Position numbers and translations under genes: made by a program. The notes under the pieces were generated by a model that saw only the letters and a program-made list of their open reading frames with translations, was not told the DNA's origin and searched no databases. A stretch of 64,000 nt of DNA from Leeia aquatica (GTDB lineage Bacteria > Pseudomonadota > Gammaproteobacteria > Burkholderiales > Leeiaceae): contig NZ_JABAIM010000001.1 in the NCBI RefSeq assembly GCF_012641365.1, positions 806,001-870,000 on the forward strand, read 5' to 3'. This document shows positions 15,793-25,336 of this stretch, one piece after another. The stretch's first letter is position 1. The number at the start of each line of letters is the position of its first letter.

Positions 15793-15830
15793 ACAGCGTG
15801 ACCTATCACGCTGTCTTTTGTCTTGTTTTT
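15793..15830 (+). terminator. Rho-independent terminator (probable)
   Basis: ACAGCGTGA (15793-15801) and TCACGCTGT (15806-15814) form a 9-bp perfect stem with a CCTA loop, followed by the T-rich run CTTTTGTCTTGTTTTT. It lies 165 bp after the DeoR gene and isolates the RiPP-like locus from it. Confidence 0.7.
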
Positions 15831-16056: not shown

Positions 16057-16296
16057 ATGACTGCATCAACAAGCCGTACGCTGGCCCATCAACTCGCACA
16101 GAACCTGAGCGCGCAAGAACTGGAACAAGTCGCAGGAGGCTTCAATCCCAACGGAAATTATGCCTCGCCGGGCTGGAACGAACGCACGCTGACCAATCCA
16201 TTTGAGTTCAGCTGGCAGTGGAATGAATCCACCCACAGCTATCAGTCGCAGCTCACCATCGTCCACAGCAGCATCGACAACATCGTGCATGGCTGA
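16057..16296 (+). CDS. Putative graspetide-like RiPP precursor with Gly-Gly leader
   Basis: The 79-residue peptide has an excellent ribosome site (CTGGAGG, 7 nt before ATG). Residues 1-28 resemble a double-glycine leader: LSAQELEQVAGG at 17-28, the signature cut by C39-type peptidases. The remainder (29-79) is hydrophilic and rich in Ser/Thr (37, 44, 46, 52, 58, 59, 61, 64, 67, 71, 72) plus acidic residues Glu42, Glu50, Glu57 and Asp74. These are the side chains that ATP-grasp ligases join as esters or amides in graspetides. It has no Cys and no canonical microviridin core. The very next gene, 50 bp on, is an ATP-grasp ligase. No protease or transporter gene is beside it. Precursor identity is inferred from context and architecture. 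Confidence 0.65.
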   Translation: MTASTSRTLAHQLAQNLSAQELEQVAGGFNPNGNYASPGWNERTLTNPFEFSWQWNESTHSYQSQLTIVHSSIDNIVHG

Positions 16297-16304
16297 AGCA
16301 CGCT

Positions 16305-16324
16305 GCCCCCTCTTTGGAGGGGGC
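16305..16324 (+). other. Strong stem-loop between precursor and ligase genes
   Basis: GCCCCCTC (16305-16312), loop TTTG, GAGGGGGC (16317-16324): eight G-C-rich pairs directly after the precursor stop. No U-tract follows, so it is more likely a processing or mRNA-stability hairpin than a full terminator. Such a structure would keep the precursor more abundant than the enzyme. Confidence 0.55.
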
Positions 16325-16346
16325 CCCCGGACACAGGACACCAGAT

Positions 16347-17498
16347 ATGGGTTTACTCATCATCGCCCCGCTGCGCGACGACCATGCCCTTGCCGTGATG
16401 TGGTCGCTACGCCGGGCCGGGCTGGATAGCTGGTTGTGGGATCCCACAGCCTTCCCCAGCCAGGGCACCATCAGCCTCAACCCCACCGAGCTGCAGACAC
16501 ACCGGCTGGAAGTCCACACCCTGAAAGGGGAGCGTGTGGATTTGCCGCTGCAGCACGTCAAGGCCGTCTGGTGTCGCCGCATGATGCGCGCCGCCCCGTA
16601 TCTGGACTTCAGCCACATCCACCCTGCCGACCTGGGATTTGTGATCGAGCAAGCCAGCGGCATGATCCGCAATGTCTGGGACTGGCTGGCAACCGTACTG
16701 GCCGATGTCCCCTGGGTGAACCCGCTGAATGCACACGTCGAGAGCAACAGCAAAGGCAAACAGCTGCTGATGGCACAGCGTGCCGGGTTTGCCATCCCGC
16801 CGACCCTGATCAGCAATCATCCGCAGCAGGTGCGTGCTTTCTGCGAACAGCATCAGGACGGCCTGATCTACAAGACCTTCACCCCCGCCAGCTGGCAGGA
16901 CGAGCCCGGCCGCAGCCTGCCCACCAGCCGGGTCTGCCTCAAGGACCTGCAGGACGATCAAGCCATCCAGTCCAGCCCCGGCATCTATCAGGCACGCATC
17001 GAGAAAGCGCATGAGCTGCGGGTGCTGGTCTGCGGCACCCATCTCCTGGCGGCCCGCATCCACTCGCAAGAGCAAGCAGCCTCCAGCACGGACTGGCGAA
17101 CCCAGCAGGGCCAGTTAAGGATGGAGCCCTGCGAGCTCAAGGCGGATGATCGCGCCCGCATCCGCAGCTTCATGCAAGGCATGGGGCTGGCTTTTGGCAG
17201 CCTGGATCTGGTGGTCACCCCGCAGGGCGAGCTGGTTTTTCTTGAAGTCAACGAGCAAGGCCAGTTCCTGTTTCTGGAAAGCCACTGCCCAGCGCTACCG
17301 GCACTGGCCACCGTCAGCAGCTTCTTTGCCGAGCAGCTCGGCCTGCATCGGCCACACCCCTGGCCGGATTTCGCCAGCTGCAAAGCCGATAGCCAACTGG
17401 CCGAGTGGCGCAACCAGCACCACCGGCACCGCCCAACCCCGACACGCCGCATCGCCTACCGCTTTATCGAACCACCCCAGCCATCGGGTCAGGGCTGA
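16347..17498 (+). CDS. MvdD/RimK-like ATP-grasp ligase (graspetide maturase-like)
   Basis: The 383-residue protein has an N-terminal pre-ATP-grasp domain with VKAVWCRRMMRAAPY at about 70-84, matching the VWxRR motif of MvdC/MvdD-type macrocyclases. A SNSKGKQLLMAQRAGFAIPPTLIS segment follows, where a substrate-dependent ATP-grasp fold begins. Then come a lysine-bearing strand LIYKTFTPASW, the YQARIEKAHELRVLVCG strand pair, and the metal-binding end LVFLEVNEQGQFLFLE (E and N). These enzymes activate Asp/Glu side chains with ATP and link them to Ser/Thr or Lys of a precursor. It is preceded by the 79-residue precursor. The start at 16347 is set by conservation of the MGLLIIAP strand. An exact product cannot be predicted. 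Confidence 0.75.
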   Translation: MGLLIIAPLRDDHALAVMWSLRRAGLDSWLWDPTAFPSQGTISLNPTELQTHRLEVHTLKGERVDLPLQHVKAVWCRRMMRAAPYLDFSHIHPADLGFVIEQASGMIRNVWDWLATVLADVPWVNPLNAHVESNSKGKQLLMAQRAGFAIPPTLISNHPQQVRAFCEQHQDGLIYKTFTPASWQDEPGRSLPTSRVCLKDLQDDQAIQSSPGIYQARIEKAHELRVLVCGTHLLAARIHSQEQAASSTDWRTQQGQLRMEPCELKADDRARIRSFMQGMGLAFGSLDLVVTPQGELVFLEVNEQGQFLFLESHCPALPALATVSSFFAEQLGLHRPHPWPDFASCKADSQLAEWRNQHHRHRPTPTRRIAYRFIEPPQPSGQG

Positions 17499-23494: not shown

Positions 23495-23652
23495 CGTAGG
23501 GCGCAATAACCGCAGGGCATTGCGCCACACTCACGATCACACCGTCACGTATTCTCATGTCACCATGCACGGATGGTTACTGCATGGCAGAGTATGCAGG
23601 GAAAGCGGCTCGAGTAGTACGGCGCAATGCCCTGCGGTTATTGCGCCCTACG
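23495..23652. mobile_element. MITE-like element, copy 1
   Basis: About 158 bp bounded by inverted repeats that start CGTAGGGCGCAATAACCGCA on the left and match its complement on the right, extending to CATTGCGCC (about 31 bp per arm). The internal sequence has no credible gene. It is one of three related copies within 1.9 kb. Its right end abuts the transposase remnant at 23654. Outer flanks (GTAGC at left, GCGGGCT at right) suggest the repeat may once have been a few bases longer. Confidence 0.8.
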
Positions 23653-23653
23653 C

Positions 23654-23806
23654 GGGCTGCACCACTATGTATGGCTGTATAACCAGCACTTGCCACAGAA
23701 AGCCTTGGGTCATGAAACACTGATACAGGCGTTGAAACGATGGCAACATTTCCATCCGCATCTATTCTTGAGAGCGGTGCGTAATCATGCGGGACCTGAC
23801 AGCTAG
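23654..23806 (+). pseudogene. IS481-like transposase, C-terminal remnant
   Basis: Directly after MITE copy 1 an open frame of 50 codons plus stop reads GLHHYVWLYNQHLPQKALGH, then ALKRWQHFHPHLF and VRNHAGPDS. This resembles the tail of integrase-core transposases of the IS481/IS3 type, where the chain runs into a PxxAL-W pattern. No catalytic DDE residues remain and no start or terminal repeat is visible. It is a fragment, apparently cut off at its 5' side by the MITE. Confidence 0.65.
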
Positions 23807-24180
23807 ATGGAAATAATGGCCAAAATACTTTTCTCTTTTATAAATACAATCCATTTCCTAAGACACTCCTCAAAGACATTTGTTTCTATTACTGCGCTAT
23901 AATTTTCATCATGACTTGAAAATATTTTCACGGTGTCAAAAGAAATTAAACCAATCCAGCCTTCACGTCCCCACTCCATGGTATCTGCATTATTTTTTCG
24001 AATATAATCAATACGTCGCACCCCTTCATCTAGCCAGCATATAGATTCATCGATGCCTACGCCACCATCATCCATAAGAATACATGACAATAGACTAACA
24101 TCTCCATGCATCGCCAAGTCTGAGGTGCAAACTGGGTGGTGACCCGTGACATCTGTGCTCCAGTAGAATTTCGTGGCCAT
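23803..24180 (-). CDS. small protein of unknown function, accessory patch gene A
   Basis: This 125-residue acidic protein (start MATKFYWSTDVTGHHPVCTS) is not recognised. It has no signal peptide or membrane segment. A conserved-looking core is MEWGREGWIGLISFDTVKIF. The GC content is well below that of the window. It lies between MITE copies 1 and 2 and its stop overlaps the transposase remnant by 4 bp, convergently. Size, charge and company resemble orphan immunity genes of polymorphic toxin systems, but that is inference only. The ribosome site is weak, so the start is uncertain. Confidence 0.55.
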   Translation of the reverse strand: MATKFYWSTDVTGHHPVCTSDLAMHGDVSLLSCILMDDGGVGIDESICWLDEGVRRIDYIRKNNADTMEWGREGWIGLISFDTVKIFSSHDENYSAVIETNVFEECLRKWIVFIKEKSILAIISI

Positions 24181-24232
24181 TTTATTATCTCGATTCAATA
24201 TGCCGGATAAACAGTGATTTTTGGTTGTAGCA

Positions 24233-24388
24233 CGTAGGGCGCAATAACCGCAGGGCATTGCGCCACATTTACCATCACGCCATCACGCATCCCCATGCCA
24301 CCATGCACGGATGGTTACAGCATGACAGTGCACGCAAGGAAAGCGGCTCAGGGGGCGGCGCAATGCCCTGCGGTTATTGCACCCTACG
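24233..24388. mobile_element. MITE-like element, copy 2
   Basis: About 156 bp with the same ~31-bp terminal inverted repeats as copy 1. One mismatch in the right arm (TTGCACCCTACG instead of TTGCGCCCTACG). The interior shares CACCATGCACGGATGGTTAC and AAAGCGGCTC with copy 1. No gene inside. Confidence 0.8.
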
Positions 24389-24462
24389 TGGGCTACTTCT
24401 CAGCGGGCTGGTTTTGGGGAGGATTACCGGGGCTTCTGCAATTTAATCGACCACCCTCAGAG

Positions 24463-24942
24463 TCAGAAAATAACAAGCCGCCCTTTTGGGAAATTACCAT
24501 CCCAGCCACAAGGGAAATGGCCTTTAGCGTACCAATAGGCTTGACTTGCAAAAAATCCAGGAGGGTAAACATCGGAAAACTCTGCTTCCAAGCAAAGATG
24601 CAATACATCCCACTGAACAATATCCACAAAAATTGTAGGAAGGTTATTATCTTTAACAACCTTCGCTGTTTTTTTTATAACAAAAGGAATTGCCACCTTC
24701 TTCACTTCTTTAGCTATTGCATTCCAATACAAAAATCTATCTTTATTTCTCTCGGCGAGCCTTGAAGCGTATTGATTCGCAGCTTCTTGACATAGCCCCT
24801 CCCAACCCTCACTGGAACAACTCTCCACTGCACCATCCCATGTCTCAAGAATCAATGGGTAGTCAGAGTCTTTTTTTCCTACATTGCAAAACCATTCGAC
24901 TGCATCAAGTTCTTGCAATGTTATTATCGATCTACTTAACAT
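24463..24942 (-). CDS. small protein of unknown function, accessory patch gene B
   Basis: The 159-residue soluble protein is not recognised. Visible features are an N-terminal half rich in Trp and acidic residues (LDAVEWFC, ILETWDGAVE, EGWEGLCQEAANQYA), a basic KEVKKVAIPFVIKKTAKVVK stretch, and an aromatic C-terminus (FASQAYWYAKGHFPCGWDG). It is AT-rich, lies between MITE copy 2 and the duplicated hydrolase fragment, and is on the same strand as genes A and C. An immunity role is possible but unproven. Confidence 0.55.
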   Translation of the reverse strand: MLSRSIITLQELDAVEWFCNVGKKDSDYPLILETWDGAVESCSSEGWEGLCQEAANQYASRLAERNKDRFLYWNAIAKEVKKVAIPFVIKKTAKVVKDNNLPTIFVDIVQWDVLHLCLEAEFSDVYPPGFFASQAYWYAKGHFPCGWDGNFPKGRLVIF

Positions 24943-25040
24943 TATTCCTGACCCGCCTGGTAAATTCTACGAGAAGTTCTAGCCCACGTAGGCACCCGCA
25001 ACACCACCGGAGGGCACACTCATCCAGATGATGGATTCAG

Positions 25041-25179
25041 TAGCCCCCTGCCCGCCCCTCAGCACCGGGCGTATCCGTATGGTTCCAGGCCGCAAACAAA
25101 CCATCCAGCTGCTGCTCGGTTGCCGCAGGCAGTGCCGCACCATCCTGCGCGAAGGAAGCCAAGGGGAACGCCGCCAGCA
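25041..25179 (-). pseudogene. Duplicated 5' fragment of the serine hydrolase gene
   Basis: Bases 25061-25179 match 23201-23319 over 119 bp with five differences by eye. Homology with a 12-bp deletion continues left to about 25041. It encodes the signal-peptide end and first mature residues (LAAFPLASFAQDGAALPA...) of the hydrolase at 21647-23350. It stops abruptly 2 bp before MITE copy 3, so a second copy of the gene was probably broken there. Confidence 0.85.
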
Positions 25180-25181
25180 CA

Positions 25182-25336
25182 GTAGGGCGCAATAACCGCA
25201 GGGCATTGCGCCCCATTCACCATCACGCATCCCCATGTCAGCATATCACCATGCACGGGTCGCTACAGCATGGCTGAGCATGCATGCAAAGTGGCTCAGG
25301 GGGCGGCGCAATGCCCTGCGGTTATTGCGCCCTACG
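25182..25336. mobile_element. MITE-like element, copy 3
   Basis: About 155 bp, GTAGGGCGCAATAACCGCAG at the left end and its complement at the right. The interior is related to copies 1 and 2 (CACCATGCACGGGTCGCTAC, GTGGCTCAGGGGGC). The left end abuts the duplicated hydrolase fragment; the right end supplies the stop codon of gene C. Confidence 0.8.

Follow-up and report, generated by a model that had tools for sequence, protein, structure and literature searches.

A two-gene graspetide-type locus with a conserved leader and an orphan core peptide in Leeia aquatica

The 64,000-nucleotide stretch of Leeia aquatica DNA analysed here (the window) contains a two-gene locus that we assign to the graspetide type. 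The full reading, which we consider probable, is that a precursor with a clade-wide leader and an orphan core is acted on by one ligase, carries up to four esters, and is exported in trans. The class assignment itself is strong, as family models, fold, tree, and the conserved upstream leader all agree with the compact graspetide locus proposed in a first-pass annotation made from the sequence. The kind of system is already known; new here are the core and the ligase cluster.

The locus and its core peptide

The precursor gene (16057..16296 including the stop codon, + strand, 79 aa) is an ORF with a GGAGG ribosome-binding site 6 bases ahead of its ATG. Its frame alone is codon-positive among the six (12.3 vs ≤ −13.3), and the core taken by itself gives a similar picture (13.2 vs ≤ −6.2 in the other frames). 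After a gap of 50 bases, it is followed on the same strand by the gene of an ATP-grasp ligase (16347..17498, + strand, 383 aa), which is of graspetide type according to TIGR04187, sequence, and fold. This ligase most likely starts at the ATG at 16347, the position at which most of 22 aligned homologues also begin, and not at the TTG at 16314. Gene order and coordinates, the double-glycine leader, the VWCRR motif (ligase residues 74–78), and the residues Glu42, Glu50, Glu57, and Asp74 were all found as described at first pass.

Between the two genes lies a perfect 8-bp hairpin without a T-run (GCCCCCTC-TTTG-GAGGGGGC; 16305..16324, + strand). It has no match in Rfam, and the fold of the whole region (16290–16350; −22.6 kcal/mol, z −0.95) is no better than that of shuffled sequences, 36 of 200 being equally good; a brake on ligase expression is suggested at most. 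A pattern scan furthermore placed a terminator-like hairpin behind the upstream DeoR gene (15793..15814, + strand), so that the pair may form a unit of its own, although the three such sites observed in the stretch, as compared to 1.3 expected by chance, are weak evidence by themselves. A scan for sigma-70 promoters found none. The flanking genes encode the DeoR regulator and, convergently, a PLP-dependent Cys/Met enzyme; their best matches in the two genomes of the same genus are 52–57 % and 39–41 % identical, respectively. Nine neighbouring genes (10–21 kb of the window) were compared with Pfam, which revealed no RiPP or acetyltransferase family (two of the nine match no family), in keeping with the earlier statement that an acetyltransferase is lacking. 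A second ligase was not found either, just as had been stated: the window contains one related ORF (E 1e-10), and the genome as a whole gives a single match. No C39 peptidase-transporter is encoded in the window; one of the nine neighbours is a TauE-type permease gene, 2.8 kb away on the opposite strand.

Elsewhere in the window (23500–25331), three copies of a unit of about 150 bp, each with inverted GCCCTGCGGTTATTGCGCC repeats at its bounds, are separated by 0.6–0.8 kb. The GCCCTGCGGTTATTGCGCC end has 16 copies in the genome (at most one mismatch), 15 of them in clusters on contig C1 (673–685 kb and 829–831 kb). The unit resembles a mobile element or cassette; no standard attC core was seen in it by eye.

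The core (residues 29–79; 16141..16293, + strand) contains 11 Ser/Thr, three Glu, one Asp, and no Lys, and thereby displays the class trait of Ser/Thr/Lys donors combined with Asp/Glu acceptors. With 51 residues it is the longest in the comparison (76 cores of relatives: median 29, maximum 39), and a predominance of Glu over Asp recurs in just one of the 76. The lack of Lys is shared with 43 of these cores and leaves side-chain amides from Lys unavailable, so that only esters come into question and the amide partners envisaged at first pass are not supported. The precursor had moreover been called unfamiliar, which is true of the core but not of the leader, a common element of the ligase clade. 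A query with the precursor against 5.8 billion proteins returned only the precursor itself. A profile search with seven precursors gave 20 proteins, namely the precursor again and 19 more of 49–64 aa, and none of the 18 of these that were inspected resembles the core; as such searches depend on shared five-residue words, they may overlook a distant core. The ORFs of homologues were to be aligned for conserved Ser/Thr–Asp/Glu spacing, but because no relative shares the core, no donor–acceptor spacing can be read from conservation.

A motif of the form S-x2-W-N-E-x-T can be read directly at residues 37–44 (16165..16188, + strand) and again at residues 52–59 (16210..16233, + strand). The corresponding self-match (WNERT/WNEST, offset 15) is not significant, its BLOSUM score being reached by 1525 of 20000 shuffled cores; counted as identities in eight residues, the repeat is reached by 49 of 5000 shuffles, a weak statistic for a motif chosen after the fact. 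The repeat is hence offered as a lead only. Its first Ser is encoded by TCG in one copy and by AGC in the other, and these different codon types speak against a recent duplication.

In the mechanism that we propose, the ligase would likely bind the leader and phosphorylate Glu/Asp side chains, each of which would then be attacked by a Ser/Thr a few residues upstream. Candidate pairs are Ser37–Glu42, Thr44 or Thr46–Glu50, Ser52–Glu57, and Thr67 or Ser71–Asp74, and the joining of Ser/Thr hydroxyls to Glu42, Glu50, Glu57, and Asp74 is predicted to yield up to four esters. After cleavage behind Gly28, the cross-linked peptide would leave the cell by way of a transporter encoded in trans on contig C3 and of its HlyD partner. 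Ring formation as such is likely, and the ring pattern is likely to differ from those of the relatives found here, because the long core matches none of theirs. It might also be that the ligase modifies only part of the core, which departs from the relatives in length and acid type. A more detailed version of this proposal is tentative: a 51-residue, Lys-free, Glu-based core with two S-x2-W-N-E-x-T units that carries esters only, in an undescribed ring order, and whose export goes through a hub shared with another bacteriocin locus, namely the peptidase-transporter of the latter.

Alternatively, the core may be decayed or drifting, with a ligase that acts, if at all, near Asp74 only and leaves the long Glu-containing stretch unmodified. 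The core has a single Asp, where 75 of the 76 relatives have two or more, and keeps an Asp within its last six residues, as do 75 of the 76, both of which would suit such a residual function. However, the strong coding character of the core speaks against decay, as does the state of the ligase: none of the 27 columns invariant across 22 aligned homologues has changed in it, it retains 42 of the 43 columns conserved in at least 20 of them, and a database protein identical to it at 376 of 383 positions is full length. We therefore regard this reading as unlikely. The idea that a frameshift conceals a further Asp at the core end was also considered and rejected, as the one overlapping + strand ORF listed in another frame (16202–16429) has no DxxxD-like end.

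The ligase and its relatives

Curated models rank the ligase in the order TIGR04187 (180 bits), MvdC (161), MvdD (143), grasp-with-SPASM (67), and RimK (30), all of these scores being below the strict cut-offs, which four relatives that were scanned likewise fail to reach. The HMM comparison that had been suggested thus does return the graspetide maturase models MvdC and MvdD. As to the original designation as an MvdD-type ligase, the VWxRR motif is indeed present (as VWCRR), but the assignment to MvdD in particular does not stand, since both TIGR04187 and MvdC outscore it. Among solved structures, AMdnB (1.8e-33) and MdnB/MdnC are closest in sequence. A structure model (pLDDT 87.4, built from 23 sequences) was compared with the PDB, and the first 32 chains comprise MdnB/MdnC, AMdnB, a Chryseobacterium RiPP ligase, PruB, and PsnB; RimK does not appear until rank 33. 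Models, fold, and tree hence jointly provide the maturase-family ATP-grasp ligase that characterises the class. RimK models and structures do match, if more weakly, and no product report was seen for any of the nine members of the ligase cluster, which could point to other chemistry, for example, RimK-like addition of an amino acid instead of ring closure. Nevertheless, four graspetide-type maturase models are placed ahead of RimK, and graspetide-type ligases occupy the first 32 places of the fold search, which makes this quite improbable.

The tree and the network were computed from 151 rows, from which ligase rows of less than 280 aa and proteins of less than 300 aa were excluded; the overlong ORFs L028 and L050 were trimmed to their last 400 residues. 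In the tree (a quick method, LG+G4, no mixture), the window ligase belongs to a nine-row clade (SH-aLRT 99) together with a Roseateles ligase (L007) and seven proteins (P0002–P0008), its position inside the clade not being fixed by the tree. Of these nine, the window and L007 are the ones whose neighbouring DNA was read. This clade sits within a 13-row set (SH-aLRT 95) that adds ligases from Oxalobacteraceae and Lysobacteraceae. At an alignment score of 70, which PMC13097080 gives as the cut-off for graspetide groups, the network component of the window consists of nine rows, none from Legionella, and the Legionella component of 97; the two are separate at a score of 60 and joined at 59, in a network that holds these 151 rows alone and from which linking sequences may be missing.

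An order-wide search (399 genomes) gave five matches besides the window's own (best 105.7 bits), and a class-wide search (369 genomes) likewise five (best 164.8 bits; L089–L094, outside the tree), so that the nine-member clade appears to be rare in what was sampled. A scan of IMG/VR with the clade alignment found no relative, and the two same-genus genomes have no match to the ligase at E 1e-15. As judged from these comparisons, the nine-member cluster and the core appear to fit no described group that could be assigned here.

Leader, cleavage, and export

The leader (residues 1–28; 16057..16140, + strand) consists of RTLAHQLAQN, which is likely the part recognised by the ligase, and then LSAQELEQVAGG. 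In a profile of 58 leaders from related loci, from which the window ORF and its own copy were excluded, the precursor ranks first of the window's 714 ORFs (18.8 bits vs 5.1 for the next), and the conserved-leader precursor beside the ligase that is typical of graspetides is thus present. A leader-type ORF (at least 10 bits, ligase strand, at most 1.5 kb upstream) was found in 62 of 85 related loci, a proportion that arises partly by construction because the 58 leaders come from these same loci and the pattern was written after seeing them, the window's included; this does not apply to the opposite-strand control, in which 0 of 85 loci had such an ORF. At 10 bits, 23 of the 85 loci have none; these include L003–L006, four of the five loci that stem from other genomes in the order of the window. 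Two outcomes that would have told against the original reading, namely a ligase that clusters with enzymes lacking precursors and a 79-residue ORF that is not conserved beside homologues, were consequently not observed: precursor-type ORFs accompany 62 of 85 relatives, and it is the leader that is conserved.

Weak matches of the precursor to a lantibiotic model (Pfam, E 0.023) and to bacteriocin leader models (NCBIfam, E 0.00043 and 0.036), all below cut-off, would also fit an unmodified double-glycine bacteriocin that lies beside an ATP-grasp gene by chance, but the leader contains an RxLAxxLA part that most loci of the clade have ahead of the ligase, and it reaches 18.8 bits in a profile from which it was left out, so that this is very improbable.

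C39-type peptidase ORFs occur in at least 51 of the 85 related loci, in 50 cases on the same strand as the ligase, a lower bound given that 42 loci are shorter than 12 kb; 34 of the 85 show no C39 ORF. PMC8939145 describes the C39 peptidase as not typically lying within the graspetide locus. In the present genome, both C39 matches are on other contigs. The strong one (125.5 bits) lies on contig C3 and contains the expected catalytic Cys and His motifs, QTEAAECGLACLAM and HFVVLH. Next to it are a gene of HlyD type and three short ORFs, the leaders of which read LSMEEIAHVNGG, LSHEELNGVAGG, and LSLEEVALVSGG. Among NCBIfam models, this C39 gene is matched best by the NHLM exporter TIGR03796 (498 bits, under the cut-off), a transporter type that PMC13097080 reports with group 8 and others. 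The surrounding region (G000, contig C3, ~189018–194053; L095, 5019–10054) is a bacteriocin-like locus in its own right, with three double-glycine ORFs, an HlyD-type gene, and a C39 ABC transporter; one of the three ORFs has a Gly/Ser/Asn-rich core.

The genome search for a C39 peptidase-transporter that had been recommended therefore produced one strong gene, unlinked to the locus, and the suggestion that this function is encoded elsewhere has gained a candidate, whose connection with the locus we infer from leader likeness and three genomes; the transporter has peptides of its own. With a double-glycine site in the precursor and this single strong C39 gene, export of the product via the contig C3 transporter is plausible. 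In the two genomes of the same genus, the C39-like matches are all weak: one of 24.8 bits slightly exceeds the cut-off of 22, and the others reach 15.5 and 15.2 bits. The C39-like gene on contig C2 was rejected as maturation enzyme (21.3 bits vs the cut-off of 22; no Pfam C39 domain, E 0.001). This weak C39-like N-terminus belongs to a type I secretion ABC and HlyD-type pair beside a 946-aa ORF (L096, 4151–7674).

Which enzyme cuts double-glycine graspetides from loci devoid of a peptidase is described as an open question in PMC8939145, and the unlinked transporter makes it testable. Moreover, should the ligase close the present core, it would accept substrates very unlike those of its relatives, which would be useful for peptide cyclisation.

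Comparison with known systems

Leader and core are cleanly separated in these loci, one conserved leader being combined with cores of differing length, acid type, and spacing. According to PMC8939145, leaders follow the ligase tree whereas cores are variable, and about half of the precursors have a GG motif. Two or three tandem precursors, with one leader type and different cores, precede one ligase in L021, L025, L033, L039, L058, L063, L073, L074, and L023. The open-licence literature returned no match for graspetides with betaproteobacteria or for microviridin with ATP-grasp and Legionella.

With MdnB/MdnC of microviridin biosynthesis and Nostoc MvdC/MvdD, the window ligase shares the ATP-grasp macrocyclase fold and the VWxRR-type strand; in contrast to the present locus, these systems have two ligases beside an annotated microviridin/marinostatin precursor. 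The TxKYPSD block is a feature of microviridin cores. It is absent from the 79 residues, as had been pointed out at first pass, and together with the one ligase match in the genome this sets the locus apart from microviridins (group 1). The microviridin leader motif PFFARFL, as given in PMC8939145, is also missing from the window precursor. The fold is furthermore shared with the plesiocin ligase PsnB, which, however, is only 18–20 % identical (fold search). Plesiocin has ester-only rings onto Glu and TTxxxxEE repeats; the latter are absent here.

The Legionella loci compared here belong, to judge by their genus, to group 8. They resemble the window in their leader (RVLAYxLA...GG) and TIGR04187-like ligase (L008, 187.7 bits), and many have a C39 peptidase-transporter nearby. 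Their cores, however, are shorter and have several Asp towards the C-terminus, as opposed to one Asp in the window core, and the window ligase falls into a separate component at a score of 70 (151 rows). For the L. pneumophila graspetide Gra-7 (group 8), PMC9576775 reports three dehydrations, localised to the core for precursor A.

The nearest named relative among the matches listed is Roseateles subflavus (L007), the ligase of which is 41 % identical and a member of the same nine-member cluster. Its leader-type precursor lies about 94 bases ahead of the ligase, and the leader (RILAYVASRVLTETEMEQVAGG) shares the EQVAGG end. Unlike in the window, its core is 25 residues long and contains Asp but no Glu, and a C39 transporter is encoded within the locus on the same strand.
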